Source of the DNA: Actinocorallia sp. API 0066
GTDB lineage: Bacteria > Actinomycetota > Actinomycetes > Streptosporangiales > Streptosporangiaceae
Length of the DNA stretch: 64,000 bases
NCBI RefSeq assembly: GCF_020991275.1
Contig: NZ_JAJLQY010000010.1
Location: 124,001-188,000 of the forward strand
Reading direction: 5' to 3'
How positions within the stretch are numbered: position 1 is the stretch's first letter; the number at the start of each line of letters is the position of its first letter. The notes below the pieces were generated by a model. That model saw nothing but the letters and a program-made list of their open reading frames with translations, made no database searches and was not told where the DNA came from. The position numbers and the translations under genes are program-made. Positions 3,470-13,977 of this stretch are shown here, in pieces.

Positions 3470-5134
3470 GTGACAGACGGCTGGGCGGTACCTGGATTCT
3501 CGCTCGTCCGCGAGCTGGGTGCCGACGCGTCCGGACGGCAGGTGCTGGCGACGGACGAGCTGACCGGGACCAAGGTCACCATCCGCTACCTGCCCCCCGG
3601 CCTCCCGCGCGACGAGGCGTTCACCCGCAGGATGGACACGCTCGCGCAGTTGGAGGACGACAACCTCGTCCAGGTGTACCAACTGGTCAACGAGGACGGA
3701 CCGGGCGGCGGCGCTGCCGTCGTCTCGGAGTACTTCGACGGGGTGGCGCTGCGCCGCCTCCTCACCGACCCGCTCGACCCCGAGTCGGCCGTTGTTGTGC
3801 TGAGCGACATCCTGCTGGGCCTGGCCGCCGCGCACGCCAAGGGCGTCCACCACGGCGACGTCACGCCCGACCGGGTCCTCATCGCGCCGGACGGCCGCGC
3901 CAAGCTGGCCGACCTCGGCCTCGCCGTCGTGCAGGGCAGGGGGGCGCCTGCGGGCAACCCCGCCTACCAGGCGCCGGAGCGGTGGCACGGCTCCCCGCAG
4001 AGCGAGCGGGCCGACCTGTACGCGGCGACCGCCGTGTTCGTGGAGTGCCTGACCGGGCGGCGGCTGTTCCCGGCGACGTCCACGAGCGGGCTCGGCAAGG
4101 CGCACAACAACAGCCCGGTGCCCGTCAGCGACGTGCCAGGACCGCTGCGTCCGCTGGTGCTGCACGGCCTCGCCAAGTCGCCCGACGACAGGCCCGGCTC
4201 GGCCGCCGACTTCCTCGCCGAGCTGGACGACGCCGTCAGCCCCGTGTTCGGCCCCGACTGGGAGAAGCGCGGCCGGGCCCGCGTCCGCGAGCTCGCCAAG
4301 CGCGCCGCCGACGCCCCGCTCCCGCCGCCTCCGGCCCGCTCGTCGTTCCTGGCGCCCAAGAAGGACGCCGCAGGCGTCGCCCAGGGCCGTGGCCGCAAGG
4401 GGCCCCTGGTGCTCTTGGGCGGCGGCGTGGCGGCCGTCCTGGTGATCGGCGGCGTCGCCTACGCGACCAAGGGCGACGACACGGCTCCGGCCGTCTCGAC
4501 GCCGTCACCGGTGGCCGTCACCACGCCGCCGCCGCTGTCGAGCACCACCCCGCCCGCCGTCGAGCCGCTCGACGGCCCCGGCCTCGCGGGCAAGATCACC
4601 ACCGCCGTGGACGGCAAGGAGACCTTCGCGATCGCCTTCCGCCGCACCTCCGCCAAGGAGGTCACGTCCGCCTCCGGCTGGGTCAAGGGCAGCGACCTCA
4701 AGATCGCCGTAGCGGGCCCCAAACCCCTCACCAGGCGCCAGGTCATCGTGGTCTCGGGCACCGCCCACGTCCAGAACGGCACAAACTGGCAGAAGATCGC
4801 CCTAGGCAAGCCCAAGACCTACGGCGCCCTGGCCGCCCAGGCCCGCTGGGCCGGATCCCTCTCCGCCCTGACCGACCTCCTGGACGAAACCGAGACCCTC
4901 ACCCGCAGGGGCGGCACCCGCTGGCTGGGCACCGTCCCCGACGCCTCCGCCCTGAGCGACATAGCCCCCGGCTACAAAAAGCCCAAGGTCACCTACGACC
5001 TCACCATCGCCACCGGCTGGCTCCCCCACCGCCTCCGCGCCACCATCACCGCCGAGAACAAGCCCAAAATCACCGTGGTCATCACCTACAGCAAATGGGG
5101 CACCAAAGTCTCCATCAAACCCCCCAAGCGCTGA
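3470..5134 (+). CDS. Membrane-anchored Ser/Thr protein kinase-like protein, probable pseudokinase
   Basis: 554 aa. Residues 1-265 have the fold motifs of a Pkn-type kinase, but key residues are changed: the VAIK lysine is Arg (VTIRYL), the catalytic loop reads HGDVTPDRV instead of HRDLKPxN (Asp kept; Lys and Asn lost), and DFG is DLG. APERW of the activation segment is kept. One transmembrane helix at about 311-331 is followed by a Ser/Thr/Pro linker and a 190-residue extracytoplasmic domain whose beta-rich pattern resembles LppX/LprG-like domains (weak inference). It probably senses or scaffolds rather than phosphorylates. Start is a GTG at 3470. It opens the accessory segment next to hemL. 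Confidence 0.85.
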   Translation: MTDGWAVPGFSLVRELGADASGRQVLATDELTGTKVTIRYLPPGLPRDEAFTRRMDTLAQLEDDNLVQVYQLVNEDGPGGGAAVVSEYFDGVALRRLLTDPLDPESAVVVLSDILLGLAAAHAKGVHHGDVTPDRVLIAPDGRAKLADLGLAVVQGRGAPAGNPAYQAPERWHGSPQSERADLYAATAVFVECLTGRRLFPATSTSGLGKAHNNSPVPVSDVPGPLRPLVLHGLAKSPDDRPGSAADFLAELDDAVSPVFGPDWEKRGRARVRELAKRAADAPLPPPPARSSFLAPKKDAAGVAQGRGRKGPLVLLGGGVAAVLVIGGVAYATKGDDTAPAVSTPSPVAVTTPPPLSSTTPPAVEPLDGPGLAGKITTAVDGKETFAIAFRRTSAKEVTSASGWVKGSDLKIAVAGPKPLTRRQVIVVSGTAHVQNGTNWQKIALGKPKTYGALAAQARWAGSLSALTDLLDETETLTRRGGTRWLGTVPDASALSDIAPGYKKPKVTYDLTIATGWLPHRLRATITAENKPKITVVITYSKWGTKVSIKPPKR

Positions 5135-5158: not shown

Positions 5159-5709
5159 TCAACCGGTGACGATCATGCCGCCGAGCTCCACGACGTCGTA
5201 GTCCTCCAACGTCACGTGGAGCTGCGCCGCGCGCAGCCAGCGCGTGCGGAGGTCGGTGTGCGCGATGGTGGTGGCGCTGGGCACCAGCCCGGCCCGGGTG
5301 GGCCGGTAGAGCACGCCGGAGATCCCGGACACACCGGCGGATGCGCCGTCATCACAGGCGCGGGCCACGGGCCTTCCGCGCTCTCGTACTCCTCCCGCGA
5401 AAGCATCCACAACCCACTCTTCCCACAGGGCGTCCCGCACACCTGGCACAGCGACCCACGCATCGCCTCGCGCTGCCGCAGAACGTGCACGGACTTGAAC
5501 TGCGGAACCCCCACCCCGGGACTGAACCCCACCCGAGTCCACAACACCCCCGCACGGTCACGGTCCTCCGCCCTCTCATCCGCATAGGCGATCCGCCCAC
5601 CCCGCACCACCACCGCGACCTGCAAGGTGTCCTCCGACGACCACGCCGTGATGTACGGCACGACCCCCCACCGCGCCAGATTCACCGCAAAACAACCACG
5701 CCCAGACAT
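5159..5709 (-). pseudogene. Frameshifted copy of the zinc-ribbon-like gene at 9385-10020
   Basis: Aligns with the intact gene at 9385-10020 over its length, sharing start context (MSGRGCFAVNLARWGVVPY), the CQVCGTPCGKSGLWMLSREEYES core and the C-terminal LEDYDV-MIVTG end. Relative to that gene, 85 bp are missing at 5324-5328, where both deletion ends carry CCCGG. The loss shifts the frame after HPPVCPG and removes the second Cys cluster. The remaining 3' half stays readable in another frame, so the deletion is recent. It is divergent from the HTH gene at 5898 just as the intact copy is from the HTH gene at 10288. Confidence 0.85.
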
Positions 5710-7831: not shown

Positions 7832-8177
7832 CGGTTCTCCCACCTTCAGACGCGAGCGAACCCGAACATCGGATTCGAGGCATTGAAAACGACACCCCCC
7901 ACCCCCCGCAAGAGAATCCCAGACCACAACCCCCCGACCCGAAGCCCCGAAACCACCCCACCACCCTGAGGCATCACCGCAGGTCACCAACCCCCACCAA
8001 CCAGAAACACAATCCATCCTGGTAGCAACAAGCGCCACCACCCACCACACCCAACACTCCGAAGCCTCCCCAACACGAACAGTGCACGATTTCGCCCCGC
8101 GCGGCCCTGCTGCGCACCGGCCACTAGCTTCCCCGCGCAACCCCGTCGATGGCGCATGCCCTTAGACCGCCGCCCCC
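7832..8177. other. Intergenic stretch without recognised gene
   Basis: About 345 bp upstream of the secreted-protein gene, rich in C-runs (several CCCCCC tracts on the plus strand) and relatively A-rich. It should hold that gene's promoter on the minus strand, but no convincing -35/-10 pair was found. It ends where hydrolase homology begins at 8178. Confidence 0.5.
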
Positions 8178-8421
8178 GGCGTCTCCCTGACTCACGGGAT
8201 CACGGTCGACCGCGACAAGGGCGGCATGCTCGTGCGGCTCACCGAACGGGTGCGGGTTTTGGGGTGCTGAGGTTCTCCTACCGGGGGCACGGCGAAAGCG
8301 GCGGAACCCAGGAGGGCGTGACCATCGCAGGCGAGATGCTCGACCTCCAGGCCGCGGTCGCCGTCGCGCGGACGGAGTTCGCGGGGCCTCTGTCTCTGGT
8401 CGCCGCGAGCTTCGGCGCCGT
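8178..8421 (+). pseudogene. Truncated, frameshifted duplicate of the adjacent hydrolase gene
   Basis: Matches 8611-8861 of the intact hydrolase gene (codons about 43-126). The first part is diverged, but 8258-8421 differs from 8698-8861 at only five positions by eye. A 7-bp deletion near 8250 breaks the frame, and homology stops abruptly after TTCGGCGCCGTC. No N-terminal or C-terminal parts remain. It looks like the remnant of a tandem duplication with recent sequence exchange over the nucleophile-elbow region. Confidence 0.8.
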
Positions 8422-8484
8422 CATAATCCCGTCGTCCCGCCAGCGTTCCTCTTCCTGAGGTGACGGGGAGATGGAAGTCTTGCC

Positions 8485-9300
8485 GTGTATCCGGTCAACG
8501 CTCTGGAGGGGCTTGTGGGCGGTTTCCAGGCGAGGTCGTTGGGGTTCGCCTCGGTTGACGGCGTCTTGATCGACGCGGTCGTCAACCTTCCGGATGGAGG
8601 GATTCGTGGGGGCGTCGTCCTGGCTCACGGGATCACGGTCGACCGGGACGAGGGCGGGATGTTCGTGCGGCTCGCCGAGCGGTTGGCGGGTGCGGGTTTT
8701 GGGGTGCTGAGGTTCTCCTACCGGGGGCACGGCGAAAGCGGCGGAACCCAGGAGGGCGTGACCATCGCAGGCGAGATGCTCGACCTCCAGACTGCGGTCG
8801 CCGTCGCGCGGACGGAGTTCGCGGGGCCGTTGTCCCTGGTCGCCGCGAGCTTCGGCGCCGTCTCCAGTTGTGTTTCGCTGCCCTACCTGGAGGGCCGGCT
8901 TTCGCGCTTGGTCCTGTGGAATCCGGTACTCGATCTCGTCCGGACCTTCGTCGAACCGGAGCTCCCCTGGGGAGTGGAGAATTTCGGACCGGAGGCGCAG
9001 GCGGCGCTGAACGATCGCGGCCACCTACTCGTGGACGACGAGTTCAAACTCGGCAGAGTCCTCTTCGAGGAGTTCACCCGGTACCGTCCGGCCGAGGCGT
9101 TCGCCGCCAGTGGCGTGCCCGCCTTGGTGGTGCACGGGGACCGCGATTCGTATGTGTCGTACGAGATCGCCGCACGCGCCGCCAAGGAACGTCCCGCGAC
9201 AGCCCTCCACACGATCGAGGGGTCCGATCACGGCTTCGACTCACGGGAACGGGAGGACGACGCGATCACGGTGACGGTCGACTGGCTGTCGGGCGCATAA
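8485..9300 (+). CDS. Alpha/beta hydrolase
   Basis: 271 aa, single alpha/beta-hydrolase domain. Oxyanion-hole motif VVLAHGITVDRDEGG, then LRFSYRGHGESGG; the nucleophile elbow is AASFGA, acid Asp in VVHGDRDSYVS, and His in EGSDHGFDSRE. This pattern fits cytoplasmic serine esterases or acyl-peptide-hydrolase-like enzymes; the substrate is unknown. GTG 8485 has a GGAAG site about 9 bp upstream. It follows a decayed partial copy of itself. Confidence 0.87.
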   Translation: MYPVNALEGLVGGFQARSLGFASVDGVLIDAVVNLPDGGIRGGVVLAHGITVDRDEGGMFVRLAERLAGAGFGVLRFSYRGHGESGGTQEGVTIAGEMLDLQTAVAVARTEFAGPLSLVAASFGAVSSCVSLPYLEGRLSRLVLWNPVLDLVRTFVEPELPWGVENFGPEAQAALNDRGHLLVDDEFKLGRVLFEEFTRYRPAEAFAASGVPALVVHGDRDSYVSYEIAARAAKERPATALHTIEGSDHGFDSREREDDAITVTVDWLSGA

Positions 9301-9302
9301 CC

Positions 9303-9395
9303 GTGGAGATGCCATTCGGCCCGCTCCAAGTCGGTGAGGACACCTTCCCGGGAGCCGACAACGTCGTGATCGAGGATCAGGTGCTCAACCGGTGA
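9303..9395 (+). pseudogene. Possible remnant of a lost gene 3' end
   Basis: A short plus-strand frame from GTG 9303 to TGA 9395 encodes about 30 residues (VEMPFGPLQVGEDTFPGADN, then VVIEDQVLNR) that read like genuine protein rather than random GC-rich sequence. It directly follows the hydrolase and overlaps the 3' end of the minus-strand gene at 9385. Too short to classify; it may be the C-terminal end of a deleted gene or chance. Confidence 0.25.
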
Positions 9396-10020
9396 TGATC
9401 ATGTTGCCGAGGCCGATGACGTCGTAGTCCTCCAGTTGGACGTGGAGTTGGGTCGCGCGTAGCCAGCGGGTGCGGGGGTCGTTGTGGGCGATGGTGGCGT
9501 CGCTGGGTGCCAGACCGGCCCGGGTGGGCCGGTAGAGCATGCCCGAGAACCCGGCCGGGGCGACGCGCCGGGGACGCAGCACCACGTACCCCCGACGCAG
9601 GTGCGGGCACAGCCGCGCCGACCGCTCCACACACCCCGGACACACCGGAGGATGCGCCGTCATGACGGGCGCGGGCCACGGCCCGTCCGCGCTCTCGTAC
9701 TCCTCCCGCGAGAGCATCCACAACCCGCTCTTTCCGCAGGGCGTGCCGCACACCTGGCACAGCAGGCGGCGCATCGCCTCCCGCTGCCGGAAGAAATGGA
9801 CGGACTTGAACTCCGGAACCCCGACACCGGGGCTGAACCCGATCCGCGTCCACAACACCCCCGAACCGTCACGGTCCTCCGCCCTCTCGTCGGCATACGC
9901 GATCCGCCCACCACGAACCACCACCACGACCGGCGACGTCTCCTCCGACGACCACGCCGTGATGTACGGCACAACACCCCAACGCGCCAGATTCACCGCA
10001 AAACAGTCACGCCCAGACAT
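9385..10020 (-). CDS. Uncharacterised protein with zinc-ribbon-like Cys clusters, partner of DUF397 module
   Basis: 211 aa, intact copy of the family broken at 5159-5709. The N-terminal beta-rich part (residues 1-80) contains WGVVPYITAWSSEE, VVRGGRIAYADERAEDRDG and VLWTRIGFSPG. The middle has two Cys clusters, LCQVCGTPCG and PPVCPGCVERSARLCPHLRRG, consistent with one structural zinc site. The C-terminal part ends MLYRPTRAG...LEDYDVIGLGNMIITG. No catalytic motif is recognised. Similar proteins sit beside HTH-DUF397 loci in other actinomycetes (recollection, not searched). It is divergent from the HTH gene at 10288; ATG 10020 is preceded by GAAAGGTG. Confidence 0.75.
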   Translation of the reverse strand: MSGRDCFAVNLARWGVVPYITAWSSEETSPVVVVVRGGRIAYADERAEDRDGSGVLWTRIGFSPGVGVPEFKSVHFFRQREAMRRLLCQVCGTPCGKSGLWMLSREEYESADGPWPAPVMTAHPPVCPGCVERSARLCPHLRRGYVVLRPRRVAPAGFSGMLYRPTRAGLAPSDATIAHNDPRTRWLRATQLHVQLEDYDVIGLGNMIITG

Positions 10021-10057
10021 ACGTGCACACCTTTCTGGCACCAAGAACAGCACCGAT

Positions 10058-10104
10058 TCTGTACTGTACGACTTTCGTACTGTACGAAGTTCATACAGTA
10101 CGAA
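10058..10104. promoter_or_regulatory. Three tandem palindromic GTAC operators
   Basis: Three 15-bp near-palindromes centred at 10065, 10081 and 10097, exactly 16 bp apart. The middle one, TTCGTACTGTACGAA, is a perfect 7-bp inverted repeat around one base; the third, TTCATACAGTACGAA, has one mismatch; the first, TCTGTACTGTACGAC, is weaker. They lie 38-84 bp from the minus-strand start at 10020 and upstream of the HTH-DUF5753 gene, so they probably control one or both divergent transcripts. Confidence 0.7.
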
Positions 10105-10179
10105 GTATCTAGCGATCGGGGACGGAAGGGCAAGGGCTCAGGGAGGACCAATCACCACCGAGCGACGAGAACTCGCCGC

Positions 10180-10230
10180 TGTACCGAGTGCTGGAATGTA
10201 CGGACTGCTCGGATGTACGAGTGCGCCGTA
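10180..10230. repeat. 17-bp tandem direct repeats beginning TGTAC
   Basis: Units at 10180 (TGTACCGAGTGCTGGAA), 10197 (TGTACGGACTGCTCGGA) and 10214 (TGTACGAGTGCGCCGTA): the first two agree at 14 of 17 positions and the third keeps TGTAC and a shifted GAGTGC. They lie 57-108 bp upstream of the HTH gene start at 10288, separate from the palindromes at 10058-10104, and may be a second binding array for the same protein. Confidence 0.6.
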
Positions 10231-10287
10231 CAGGTAAACTTCCGCCTGCGGCTCTCCCACGCCCCCTCCGCCGCTCAGGAGGCCCGA

Positions 10288-11157
10288 ATGATCAGTCCCT
10301 ACGTGCGTCGGCACCGCCTGGCCGCCGAACTCCGCGAGCTGCGCGCGTCCAGCGGCATCAGCACGGTCGACTTGGCCAAGGCGATCGGGGTCCACCGTCC
10401 GGTGCTGTCGAATCTTGAGAACGGCAAGGGCACGCCGAACCTCAATGTCGTCTTCAAGATCCTTGAACACCTCGACGTGAAGAACCCCAAGTGGGACGAG
10501 GTCATCAAGATCGCTCGTGAGGCGTCGGAGCGGGGGTGGTGGGTTCCACTGACGAAGAAGATGGGACCCCGCCAGGCCCTCTATGCCGACCTCGAAGGGG
10601 GAGCCACCCAGATCCGGGACGTCCAGCAAGCGCTCATCCCGGGCCTCCTCCAGACCCCGGAGTACACACGAGCACGGCTGGCGGAATCCGAGCAGTGGTT
10701 CCCCCGAACCCCCGGAACCACCGTCGAAGGAATCCTCGAAGGCCGCGCGGGGCGGCGACGGAACCTGCATCGTCCCGATGGGCCGCGCTTCGAGACGATC
10801 CTGGACGAGATCGCGATCACCCGTCCAACCGCGGCCCCGCACATACTCAGAGAGCAGTACCGCCACATCGTGGACGTGGTCGAGCGGGAAGCACCCAGGA
10901 TCAGCGTGCTGATCCTGCCCCTGACCGCGAAGATCAGCTCCTATGCCGTACCACTCACCAGGTTCTCCATCTACGACTACGTGAACGATCCCCCGGTCGT
11001 GTCGATCGAGGGTGCTAGTAACGACACGGTTCTCCACGGCCCGGAGGCCGTGCAAAGCCACGTGAACCTGTACGACATGCTTCGCGAAGCGAGTCTCTCG
11101 CCCGAAGCCAGCATCGAAGCCCTCTTCCGGGCAGCCGAGCGGCTGCCGCACATATAG
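10288..11157 (+). CDS. XRE-type HTH, DUF5753 (Scr1 family) transcriptional regulator
   Basis: 289 aa. HTH at about residues 13-66 (LRELRASSGISTVDLAKAIGV, LSNLENGKGTPN), DUF5753 domain about 95-285 (ALIPGLLQTPEYTRARL; ISVLILPLTAKISSY; FSIYDYVNDPPVVSIEGAS). ATG 10288 has a strong AGGAGG site 5 bp upstream; the much longer open frame before it is only the shadow of the opposite-strand gene. DUF397 follows after 10 bp. It is paralogous in arrangement to 5898-6886 but clearly diverged in sequence. Its operators are probably the GTAC repeats upstream. Confidence 0.92.
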   Translation: MISPYVRRHRLAAELRELRASSGISTVDLAKAIGVHRPVLSNLENGKGTPNLNVVFKILEHLDVKNPKWDEVIKIAREASERGWWVPLTKKMGPRQALYADLEGGATQIRDVQQALIPGLLQTPEYTRARLAESEQWFPRTPGTTVEGILEGRAGRRRNLHRPDGPRFETILDEIAITRPTAAPHILREQYRHIVDVVEREAPRISVLILPLTAKISSYAVPLTRFSIYDYVNDPPVVSIEGASNDTVLHGPEAVQSHVNLYDMLREASLSPEASIEALFRAAERLPHI

Positions 11158-11167
11158 AAGGAAGGTC

Positions 11168-11356
11168 ATGACGACCGAGCAGTTCAGCGGTTGGCGCAAG
11201 TCCCGGCGCAGCGAAGGCGACGCCCAATGCGTCGAGATCGGTCGGGGCGACGGCGGCAGCATCGGGGTCCGTGACTCCAAGAACATCGACGGGCCGCATG
11301 TGGCGTTCACCCGACAGGCGTGGTCCCTCTTCCTCTCAGGGACACGCCACCGATAG
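11168..11356 (+). CDS. DUF397 domain protein
   Basis: 62 aa. Signature FSGWRKSRRSEGDAQCVEI, then IGVRDSKNIDGPHVAFTRQAW, ending LFLSGT. It follows the HTH-DUF5753 gene by 10 bp with its own AGAAGGAAGG ribosome site, so is co-transcribed and probably the functional partner of that regulator. Small, no membrane segment or signal peptide. Confidence 0.92.
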   Translation: MTTEQFSGWRKSRRSEGDAQCVEIGRGDGGSIGVRDSKNIDGPHVAFTRQAWSLFLSGTRHR

Positions 11357-11426
11357 CCGATGTGCCGTCGCCGCCGGAAAGGCGGGCTCTCGGCCGGGGA
11401 ACACAGCATGACGACGCCCCTGATCG

Positions 11427-11454
11427 CTTTCGGCGGCCACTGATGATCCGAAAG
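11427..11454. terminator. Weak hairpin between convergent genes
   Basis: CTTTCGG/CCGAAAG arms of 7 bp with a 14-nt loop, in the 121-bp gap between the DUF397 gene end (11356) and the minus-strand HTH gene end (11478). The position suits a terminator, but the stem is short and the loop long. Confidence 0.3.
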
Positions 11455-11477
11455 TAAGGAGCGCCGGTCGGCGCGGG

Positions 11478-12341
11478 CTAGGGGTTTGCAGCGGATTGCA
11501 GCCGCCGACGCGCCTCAGCTATCAACGCCCGCGCCTCGGGTCCGTAAACCGCCTGCCGTCGAAGCATCTCGAACGCGCGGAGGAAGAGCCCGATCTCTTC
11601 AGGGTCGCTCGTCCGCTGTTCTCCGGCCCAGCCAGAGCAGCGGACGAGACGCTCGTCAAAAACGTAGAAACCGGCTCCGGGGTAGAGGTACCTGTCCTGG
11701 TCCGGAGGGATGATCCCCAACGAGACGTGCGGAAGGGTCGCCACACGGGCGAGGAAGTCGAGTTGGTCGAGCATCACGTTCGCGCCGCCGAAGCGCATCC
11801 GCAGCGCGGCGGCCTCCAGCACGAAAGAGTATCGGTTCGCCCCGGTCGGCTCAGTGACGAGCCGCTGCCTGGCCATTCGGGCGTCGGCCGCGTCCTTCGG
11901 GTCGTTCTCGGGCATGTCGTAAAGGCGGGCGGCAGCGCGGAACAGGGCTTCGACATAGCCGTGCGTCTGGAGAATCCCCGGGACGAAGCCCGGCTCGTAC
12001 GCCCGGAGAACACCGGTCGTCTCATACAGACGCGCGGCGCGTGACTGAATATGCCGCTGACCGGCACGCAGTTCCCGACGCCAAGCGATCCACATCTGGT
12101 CGACCTCGCGGTGCGCCGCGATCAGCTCGGGAATCCGCCGGGCGGCACCACACGCCGTCGCCCAAGCCCTGACGTCCTCTTCGGACGGATTCGTCTTCCC
12201 GTGCTCGATCCGCGACACCTTCGTGTTGTGCATTCCCGCCGCCCTGGCGAGTTCCACGCCGGAAAGCCCGGCGTCCAGGCGCAGATGCTTGAGCCGGGTC
12301 CCAAAGGCTTTCCGCGCCGCCGCAGCCGCTTCGCCGGACAC
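11478..12341 (-). CDS. XRE-type HTH, DUF5753 (Scr1 family) transcriptional regulator
   Basis: 287 aa; the third member of the family within 8 kb. HTH at about residues 15-68 (FGTRLKHLRLDAGLSGVELA, KVSRIEHGKTNPSEEDVRAW); DUF5753 part with PGFVPGILQTHGYVEALFRAA, VSLGIIPPDQDRYLYPGAGFYVFD and a C-terminal ALIAEARRRL helix. Start is GTG 12341, one base after the TGA of the DUF6879 gene, giving translational coupling; longer starts would read back into that gene. Unlike the other two loci it has no DUF397 partner but follows DUF6879 and an 88-residue protein. Confidence 0.9.
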   Translation of the reverse strand: MSGEAAAAARKAFGTRLKHLRLDAGLSGVELARAAGMHNTKVSRIEHGKTNPSEEDVRAWATACGAARRIPELIAAHREVDQMWIAWRRELRAGQRHIQSRAARLYETTGVLRAYEPGFVPGILQTHGYVEALFRAAARLYDMPENDPKDAADARMARQRLVTEPTGANRYSFVLEAAALRMRFGGANVMLDQLDFLARVATLPHVSLGIIPPDQDRYLYPGAGFYVFDERLVRCSGWAGEQRTSDPEEIGLFLRAFEMLRRQAVYGPEARALIAEARRRLQSAANP

Positions 12342-12342
12342 C

Positions 12343-12864
12343 TCAGGACGGCCGGTAGTCCCCGTGCGGAATGGCCACCGACCGCACCGAGGCGAACGCC
12401 GCACGGCACAGCTCGATCACCACGGGATCTGTGGACTTCTGCCGATCCACGACCGCACCGTCACCGGAGAACACAGTGAACACCGCGACGGCTTCATCGA
12501 ACAGCCAGAAGTCGTTCCCGGGCAGCGCCACTCCGGACAACAGCCGCCGCGGCGCGTACCCAACCTCTTCCCCCGCCTCGACAGCCGGACCGAGGACATG
12601 ATGAGCGAACCGCCGGTAGTCGCTGACCGGCTCCGACACCACGATGGCCCGCCGATAACTCCGGCCCGCCGCGCGAGCCCGGCGCATACGCTCGCACCAC
12701 TCGCCCATCCACCCCAGATCGTCCGGCTCCCCCGCCAGCCACGCCGCGAACCGGCTCTTCTCCAGATCGCTGCTCGCATAGAAATCACGCAGCTCAAGAT
12801 GGTCGGCTGTCTTCCTGAACGTGGCGAAGAGCTCCCCCCGCTCCTCAGCCGAGATCGACTCCAT
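12343..12864 (-). CDS. DUF6879 family protein
   Basis: 173 aa, no signal peptide or membrane helix. Typical features are ELFATFRKTADHLELRDFYA near the N-terminus, RRAIVVSEPVSDYRRFAHHV, and the WLFDE segment (NDFWLFDEAVAVFTVFSGDG). ATG 12864 is favoured over 12879 because a GGGAG site lies 7 bp before it. It overlaps the 88-residue gene upstream and abuts the HTH gene downstream. DUF6879 proteins commonly neighbour Scr1-type regulators; molecular function is unknown. Confidence 0.85.
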   Translation of the reverse strand: MESISAEERGELFATFRKTADHLELRDFYASSDLEKSRFAAWLAGEPDDLGWMGEWCERMRRARAAGRSYRRAIVVSEPVSDYRRFAHHVLGPAVEAGEEVGYAPRRLLSGVALPGNDFWLFDEAVAVFTVFSGDGAVVDRQKSTDPVVIELCRAAFASVRSVAIPHGDYRPS

Positions 12865-13111
12865 AGCGCTCCCTGGCATACATCCGCACGAACAGCTCAG
12901 CCAGCCGCTCGGGAATCTCCAACGCGACCTCGTCCGCCTTCAGCGCGAGCAACTGCCCGACCACCTCCGGCTCCGCCCGCTGCTCCCCCTGGACGACCCA
13001 GCTCTCCCGATCCGTCCGATAGAACGACGGACAATCCTCACCCGGAACCGAATCCGGATCCTTGCAGAAGAAGATAAGCCGCGGCAGCCCACCCGAGTCG
13101 TTGCTTTGCAT
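12845..13111 (-). CDS. Small conserved protein linked to DUF6879/HTH operons
   Basis: 88 aa. Core motif DCPSFYRTDRESWVVQGEQRAE, then LLALKADEVALEIPERLAELFV; the C-terminus ends RMYARERYGVDLG, inside the start region of the DUF6879 gene (20-bp overlap). Proteins with this CPTLYxTDRGTYVVQG-like core accompany DUF6879 in other actinomycetes (recollection). No known fold was assigned. It is first gene of a three-gene operon ending with the HTH regulator, suggesting that the three act together. Confidence 0.78.
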   Translation of the reverse strand: MQSNDSGGLPRLIFFCKDPDSVPGEDCPSFYRTDRESWVVQGEQRAEPEVVGQLLALKADEVALEIPERLAELFVRMYARERYGVDLG

Positions 13112-13223: not shown

Positions 13224-13841
13224 TTAGTCGGCGAGGAATTCTAGGAGGCGGAGGGGGTCGGGGAGGGGGGTGGTGGGGGTGGGGGGGCGGAGCCAGGTGA
13301 CTTCTCGGCCGGTGGGGAGGGTGGAAGGGGGGGCTACCACGTAGCTGTCTCGGCAGTGCCAGCGCATGCCCGGGTTGTCGGCGATGGTTTCGGGGGTGGA
13401 ATCCAGGTGGCAGGACCACCATTCGTCTTCGTCGGCCGGGTTGCCTCGGGTGGCTACGAAGAAGAGGAGGCGGTCTTCGCCGATCTTTGCGACTGGGCCG
13501 GTGGGGATGTTGGCGGCGGTCATGGCGGCTAGGGCGGCTTGGCCTCGGGTGGCGGGGACGTCGATGACGTCGAAGACTCGGCCCGTTGGGAGGATCACGT
13601 TGGCCGTTGGTCTGTGGGACCACCAGCGGGTCAGGGTCTCCGGGTCGGTGGTGGCCTGGATGCCCCAGGCGGCGGAGACGGGGTGGGCGGCCGGGTCGGG
13701 ACAGCCGATCCGGTCGCAGGAACAGGCGCGGTCGGCGCCCGCCGAGGCGCCCGCGACGACCGTCCAGCCGTGCCGCGCGTACGACCGCGCCGCGTCGGCC
13801 AGCCGGTTCTTCGTGCGTGAATAGCGTGCCACCGCCAACAT
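13224..13841 (-). CDS. Bifunctional DNA primase/polymerase N-terminal-domain protein
   Basis: 205 aa, shorter than replicative prim-pol proteins, with only the prim-pol-like domain. Recognised from ADAARSYARHGWTVVAGA, a Cys cluster CSCDRIGCPDPAAHPV, WWSHRPTANVILPTG, FDVIDVPA and a C-terminal WLRPPTP region. The acid motif of active prim-pols (DxD) appears as DVID, so catalysis is uncertain. It stands alone next to the haem operon in the same direction; similar single-domain proteins occur beside hemB in related actinomycetes (recollection). ATG 13841 is preceded by a G-rich ribosome site. Any role in DNA synthesis or repair is unproven. Confidence 0.8.
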   Translation of the reverse strand: MLAVARYSRTKNRLADAARSYARHGWTVVAGASAGADRACSCDRIGCPDPAAHPVSAAWGIQATTDPETLTRWWSHRPTANVILPTGRVFDVIDVPATRGQAALAAMTAANIPTGPVAKIGEDRLLFFVATRGNPADEDEWWSCHLDSTPETIADNPGMRWHCRDSYVVAPPSTLPTGREVTWLRPPTPTTPLPDPLRLLEFLAD

Positions 13842-13977
13842 GTACCGCCCCCCGAGAGAGAACCGCCCTTTCCCAGATGATGGCGAAAGCCGGTGGAGAC
13901 CCGCGCGGCGACCCCCGGGATACGGTTCCAAATGACTAGAGACTGACCACCCGGCGCGGCCGGGCGGCGAAGACCCG

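Follow-up and report, generated by a model that had tools for sequence, protein, structure and literature searches.

The window considered here is a stretch of 64,000 nucleotides from a contig of Actinocorallia sp. API 0066. It includes a 267-bp gap (positions 10021..10287) between two oppositely facing genes: (i) a cysteine-rich (Cys-rich) gene on the minus strand, which the first-pass annotation called a zinc-ribbon gene, and (ii) an HTH-DUF5753 gene on the plus strand, which is followed by a DUF397 gene (Table 1). The limits first given for this spacer coincide exactly with the gap between the ATG codons at 10020 (-) and 10288 (+), and the divergent regulator of 289 residues is likewise confirmed. 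The spacer holds two clusters of repeats, termed array 1 and array 2, that are built around the tetranucleotide GTAC. GTAC occurs nine times in the spacer, compared to a mean of 1.69 in shuffled spacers, and none of 5000 shuffles reaches nine. An Rfam scan of positions 9000-11500 returns no match, while PADLOC finds weak HTH matches for the regulator and no match for the other two proteins of the locus.

Table 1. Features of the Cys-rich/HTH-DUF5753 locus (positions are those of the window).
Feature	Position	Strand	Remarks
Cys-rich gene	9385..10020	-	211 aa, ATG 10020; presumed target
TACAGT, candidate -10 hexamer (TANNNT) of Cys-rich gene	10063..10068	-	inside array 1; pattern only
Alternative -10 candidates for Cys-rich gene	10079-10084, 10095-10100	-	inside array 1; pattern only
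Array 1, 16-bp repeats	10061..10103		oriented half-sites and two 15-bp palindromes
Array 2, TGTAC direct repeats and inverted GTACA	10180..10232		repeats 17 bp apart
TAAACT, candidate -10 of HTH gene	10235..10240	+	directly after array 2; pattern only
XRE HTH + DUF5753 regulator, WhiJ/Scr1 type	10288..11157	+	289 aa, ATG 10288; presumed binder
DUF397 protein	11168..11356	+	62 aa, starts 10 bp downstream of regulator; presumed regulator partner

The regulator has an XRE-type HTH at its N-terminus (HTH_3 at residues 15-64 and HTH_31 at 10-66, both above their cut-offs) and a DUF5753 domain at residues 97-279 (137.5 bits against a cut-off of 23.4). WhiJ/Scr1-type proteins with a C-terminal DUF5753 are reported to have 258-303 residues (PMC10364602), a size range into which the regulator falls. 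WhiJ (SCO4543) and Scr1 (SCO4441) combine an HTH with DUF5753 and have DUF397 neighbours (PMC10364602). At this locus, the DUF397 gene product (65.9 bits against a cut-off of 24) adjoins the regulator, as the WhiJ/Scr1 family requires. Thus, with the same two domains and a DUF397 neighbour, the regulator is placed in the broad WhiJ/Scr1 family. A narrower assignment as the SCO1979 equivalog (NF058600) is rejected, the score being 120.8 bits against a curated cut-off of 350. The genome holds 47 matches to the regulator, one of which is on the opposite strand, about 320 bp past the regulator gene. Positions 11478-12404 and 12343-12879 (-) of the window carry another HTH-DUF5753 gene and an overlapping DUF6879 gene, a pairing that is also seen near three other Cys-rich copies of the collection (L084, L086 and L087).

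Array 1 can be read in two ways, both of which are present in its letters. The first-pass annotation described three GTAC-W-GTAC palindromes centred on 10065, 10081 and 10097. The positions hold, with GTACTGTAC centred on 10065 and 10081, and TTCGTACTGTACGAA at 10074-10088 forming a perfect palindrome about T10081; the third palindrome (ATACAGTAC, centre 10097) is imperfect. As GTAC is its own reverse complement, the orientation of a half-site must be taken from flanking letters. When these are included, oriented half-sites of the form GTACGA/TCGTAC are found at 10066 (forward), 10075 (reverse), 10082 (forward), 10091 (reverse, as TCATAC) and 10098 (forward). These half-sites yield two 15-bp palindromes of the type GTACGANNNTCGTAC, at 10066-10080 (perfect, GTACGA-CTT-TCGTAC) and at 10082-10096 (one mismatch, GTACGA-AGT-TCATAC), which are separated by 1 bp and followed by the last half-site. 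GTAC starts are 11 bp apart inside the GTACGANNNTCGTAC palindrome and 5 bp apart in GTAC-W-GTAC. A distance of 11 bp is about one helical turn and is the half-site distance used by XRE dimers; by contrast, the 5 bp of GTAC-W-GTAC is half a turn and, thus, hard for one dimer to read. On this structural reasoning, GTACGA-N3-TCGTAC every 16 bp is probably the better reading of array 1, such that GTAC-W-GTAC, while present in the sequence, is probably not the palindromic unit.

The regular phasing of array 1 is more distinctive than its symmetry. A period of 16 gives the best phased triple in the spacer (26 of 32 positions match), and none of 2000 dinucleotide shuffles is as good. Across the window one other triple outscores it (start 60569, period 15, 26/30); thus, array 1 is among the strongest phased triples in the 64 kb and not the strongest. 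Another strong triple in the same scan starts at 4489 (period 24, 34/48). Two 6+3+6 palindromes 15-18 bp apart arise in 135 of 5000 shuffled spacers and at 33 other places in the window (35 with the two found here). The palindrome pair alone is, therefore, not rare, and it is the phasing and the shared letters that stand out.

Array 2 consists of TGTAC direct repeats, for which the 17-bp spacing and the starts at 10180, 10197 and 10214 reported earlier are correct, and is closed by an inverted GTACA at 10228-10232 that extends the earlier account. When positions 10111-10287 are taken alone, a period-17 triple is recovered (22 of 34 positions match), and 4 of 2000 dinucleotide shuffles are as good. 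The arrays lie about 80 bp apart and have the core GTACG[AG] in common; however, they differ in spacing and symmetry (16 bp and partly palindromic in array 1, 17 bp in array 2), and, thus, a single protein for both is not forced. Chance is a very unlikely source of the repeats.

Candidate promoter elements overlap or adjoin the arrays. The pattern TANNNT occurs four times on the minus strand of the spacer, three times inside array 1 and once in array 2 (10195-10200). On the plus strand it also occurs four times, and TAAACT at 10235 is the only one of these outside array 1. Since GTACWGTAC holds TACWGT by construction, the -10 candidates in array 1 are weak. A sigma-70 consensus scan of the locus detects no promoter; given this result and the built-in TACWGT, the promoter positions are putative. 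The -10 candidates would place transcription starts near 10056 (-) and 10247 (+).

The letters of both arrays appear private to this spacer. In the 7.0-Mb genome, GTACGANNNTCGTAC with at most one mismatch is found only at the two sites of array 1, while a reversed control of the motif is found at three sites; the result is thus one of confinement and not of excess. When two mismatches are allowed, the GTACGANNNTCGTAC-type motif occurs twice in the window compared to 1.4 expected. A two-mismatch site elsewhere (C2:93195) is set aside as it looks coding by eye. Similarly, a two-copy form of the 17-bp repeat with at most three mismatches is found in the genome only in array 2. The confinement of both motifs to the spacer fits a dedicated local operator. 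Of 341 genomes of the family, this locus alone has GTACNGTAC-N7-GTACNGTAC without mismatch; with one mismatch the layout is matched in 8 other genomes and its reversed control in 19 (counted from the table of matches). The stricter form of the layout has no occurrence in the genome_contigs set. The looser form is detected in 14 viral contigs and is provisionally attributed to chance there; in one of these contigs an HTH match is seen, to an XRE-like ORF that lies some 7 kb away from the layout.

The searches recover no close orthologue of the regulator. The search for an orthologue reaches a best relative of 54% identity in the 341 genomes of the family, gives no match at E<=1e-72 outside the source genome among 394 genomes of the class, and has none confirmed in genome_contigs, a set that may omit very near records. 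Upstream of 31 relatives of the regulator (43-54% identity), GTAC is found 24 times compared to 24.5 expected, without excess, and a GTAC array as a trait of the HTH subfamily is thus unsupported. The relatives match the recognition-helix stretch VHRPVLSNLENGK at no more than 8 of 13 positions; other operator letters are therefore expected ahead of them, and the absence of GTAC counts for little.

Spacing gives a different signal. Repeats at a lag of 17 bp are found in 12 of 27 upstreams of the closest relatives, compared to 2.18 expected, and none of 300 shuffles reaches 12 (110-bp upstreams, a 7-base repeat with one mismatch allowed, 27 of the 31 kept after redundancy removal); this lag is one of 23 tried, with a next smallest p of 0.07. 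Examples include GGTGACATTC, present twice in L140, and TTCCCG, TTCCCG and TGCCCG in L131. A second set of 80 further, mostly more distant relatives (79 usable, 43 after a slightly stricter redundancy cut) has the lag in 7 of 43 upstreams versus 4.45 expected, a count reached by 66 of 500 shuffles. The enrichment is thus not replicated, and a 17-bp spacing as a general rule is not borne out. A best repeat of at least 6.6 at lag 16-17 is present ahead of 6 of 25 close relatives versus 1 of 40 distant ones (Fisher p 0.011), with the 65 non-redundant upstreams (of 110) split at 44% identity and both grouping and threshold chosen post hoc. These counts are suggestive of a 17-bp spacing, and only where the nearest relatives are concerned. 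Across HTH-DUF5753 genes at large, upstream phased triples are in weak excess (p<=0.05 in 13 of 90, this locus included, compared to 4.5 expected). Elsewhere in the genus, the region about 200 bp ahead of one HTH-DUF5753 gene (L034) carries the 15-bp unit GTGCGCACGGAGCGG three times in tandem without mismatch, and every unit includes a GTGCGCAC palindrome. Two different HTH-DUF5753 genes of a single genome of the genus (L039 and L041) are preceded by ACAAGTCA as direct repeats with a 20-bp spacing.

Neither Pfam nor NCBIfam gives a match for the Cys-rich protein, which matches PHROG 30088, a group of unknown function, at 5e-34. Full-length copies number eight in the genome (78-100% identical, the copy at 9385-10020 included), and a broken ninth copy lies at about 5162-5709 (-) of the window. 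Matches to this protein family are found in 62 of 297 genomes of the taxonomic family searched and are absent from two other genomes of the genus searched. Relatives also occur in 6 phage records, representing three phages (Gilgamesh, TurkishDelight and VWB), and in 53 plasmid records; Streptomyces plasmids are among their locations. Of the 9 copies in the genome, 4 stand divergent to an HTH-DUF5753/DUF397 pair. Among 12 copies examined in other genomes, drawn from the best matches, 3 have this arrangement at a distance of up to about 700 bp and 2 more at 1-1.6 kb. In Streptomyces, abaA paralogues and iosA stand beside WhiJ paralogues (PMC10294661), and the Cys-rich gene seems, by analogy, to hold the place that these genes have there.

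The array does not travel with the Cys-rich family. Among the 21 Cys-rich copies examined, only that at 9385-10020 has GTACNGTAC within 300 bp upstream; thus, the array belongs with the locus, and a GTAC array as a trait of the Cys-rich family is rejected. Eight other divergent Cys-rich/HTH spacers examined have no comparable array: their palindromes do not reach p 0.05, and their direct repeats (p 0.005 in L095 and L096, 0.05 in L098) are all GC-rich runs. The leaders of three Cys-rich copies (L086, L087 and L088) are alike from -80 to -22 (z 4.0 to 9.6), while the best matches of the 9385-10020 copy over this interval are L090 and L084 (z 2.8 to 4.3). A replacement of the region upstream of this copy is only suggested by these comparisons. 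A truncated alpha/beta hydrolase duplicate is noted by eye directly before an intact gene (8156-8458 and 8485-9297, +). The hydrolase duplicate, the two Cys-rich copies and the two HTH-DUF397 pairs may together represent an old segmental duplication.

XRE/Cro-CI repressors use tandem palindromic operators, several in series between divergent promoters. Array 1 resembles these operators in its serial sites and in the distance of about one helical turn between the two half-sites of a dimer; it differs in that the dimer sites are just 1 bp apart and that the protein has DUF5753. Among HTH-DUF5753/DUF397-type pairs, the only operator defined in the literature covered, as far as the excerpts go, is that of WhiJ9. 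In Streptomyces venezuelae, WhiJ9 binds to a set of three direct repeats in the spacer between the divergent whiJ9 and iosA genes; in a bldB mutant the activation of iosA depends on WhiJ9, and loss of whiJ9 raises its own transcription 2-fold (PMC10294661). The earlier suggestion that no operator of this layout had been published thus gives way, as the arrangement has a precedent in WhiJ9, from which the sequence and spacing differ (PMC10294661). In the text available for WhiJ9, the likeness extends to a WhiJ-family XRE regulator, a DUF397 (BldB-type) gene beside it, a divergent target and three direct repeats; direct repeats in a divergent spacer beside the regulator, the mark of a WhiJ9-type operator, are found here too. 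By contrast, the WhiJ9 repeats read CGxxCTCAAC and all three fit within a 34-bp oligonucleotide, and hence are more tightly spaced than those of arrays 1 and 2, which read GTACGA, are 16/17 bp apart, partly palindromic and form two arrays. CGxxCTCAAC with at most one mismatch is absent from 10021-10287; on sequence, therefore, the arrays fall outside the WhiJ9 operator type. DUF5753 is present in the regulator here, whereas the excerpted text of PMC10294661 makes no statement of it for WhiJ9, and binding is demonstrated for WhiJ9, whereas at the arrays it is predicted.

The Scr1/Scr2 (SCO4441/SCO4442) and Cpb1 systems of Streptomyces have an HTH-DUF5753 and DUF397 pair as found here (PMC6262351, PMC6097792). 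Cpb1, the Scr1 orthologue, binds the chiA promoter (PMC6262351, PMC6097792), and its specific binding to chitinase direct repeats could not be shown (PMC6097792); the portions of these two papers that were available give no operator sequence for Scr1, Scr2 or Cpb1. The DUF5753, DUF397 and WhiJ literature searched, which lies mostly outside subscription journals and is in part excerpted, has no operator with the array sequence, and among the matches listed for the string GTACTGTAC, none is in this field by title. By analogy, the arrays are most likely a new sequence variant of the control arrangement published for Streptomyces WhiJ9-iosA.

Position, confinement, half-site geometry and the WhiJ9 precedent make the adjacent regulator the best candidate for the binder. 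Both arrays are probably local operators dedicated to this HTH-DUF5753 regulator, with array 1 at the likely promoter of the Cys-rich gene and array 2 at that of the regulator and DUF397. The regulator is predicted to bind array 1 as dimers, placed end to end on the GTACGA-N3-TCGTAC palindromes every 16 bp, and to bind array 2 through GTACGR-like half-sites with a 17-bp spacing. With the putative Cys-rich promoter covered by array 1, and that of the regulator's own operon with DUF397 by array 2, one protein would set both Cys-rich transcription and its own level, and the DUF397 protein would probably modulate the regulator. By analogy to WhiJ9, the regulator may repress itself and either activate or repress the divergent gene. 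We infer the identity of the binder, the promoter positions, cooperativity and the direction of control.

The differences in spacing and symmetry could instead mean that array 2 alone belongs to the regulator, while control of the Cys-rich gene through array 1 falls to some other protein, be it a second XRE protein, a repressor of the TetR type or the Cys-rich protein itself. The 17-bp spacing of array 2 resembles that upstream of the regulator's closest relatives, and candidate binders are at hand among the 47 matches in the genome, including the one about 320 bp beyond the regulator. Such a division is nonetheless unlikely, as unrelated binders would hardly share the core GTACG[AG] in one 267-bp spacer, and the palindrome of array 1, absent ahead of the 20 other Cys-rich copies examined, occurs nowhere else in the genome, which argues against both a trans-acting regulator with other targets and self-binding by the Cys-rich family.

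The three adjacent copies in array 1, its lack of demonstrable conservation and the restriction of the exact layout to one of 341 genomes of the family (with no stricter form in the genome_contigs records) would also be consistent with a recent local tandem duplication of the 16-bp unit by replication slippage, of weak or no function. This origin is improbable in view of the second array with the same core about 80 bp away, the location ahead of both genes, and the GTACGA half, which is identical in all three copies while the differences fall mostly elsewhere (by eye). A role of the arrays in a mobile element, as iterons or as sites for partition or recombination, is very improbable: 20 of the 21 Cys-rich copies examined lack the array, and among nine proteins scanned between 5.8 and 13.9 kb, an interval with some further ORFs, the one replication, partition or integrase domain is that of a 235-residue ORF at 13224-13931 (-), a Prim-Pol domain (bifunctional DNA primase/polymerase, N-terminal). 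That domain speaks for a mobile element, as do the phage and plasmid relatives of the Cys-rich protein, its dispersed copies in the genome and the looser layout in the 14 viral contigs.

A wider pattern, less likely than not, may also be considered. Close WhiJ-type regulators may share a fixed repeat geometry of about 17 bp (1.6 turns), while the letters vary with the recognition helix and would give dozens of paralogues private operators; this locus would then be an extreme case, in which the added dimer-palindrome array places the partner gene under this regulator as well. HTH-DUF5753/DUF397 pairs are numerous in the genomes of Actinobacteria, as the 47 regulator matches illustrate. With its clear private repeats, this spacer is well suited to reveal which DNA letters a WhiJ-type protein recognizes, and the locus could teach whether binding is cooperative, what effect DUF397 has on binding and how a cell with many similar regulators avoids cross-talk.
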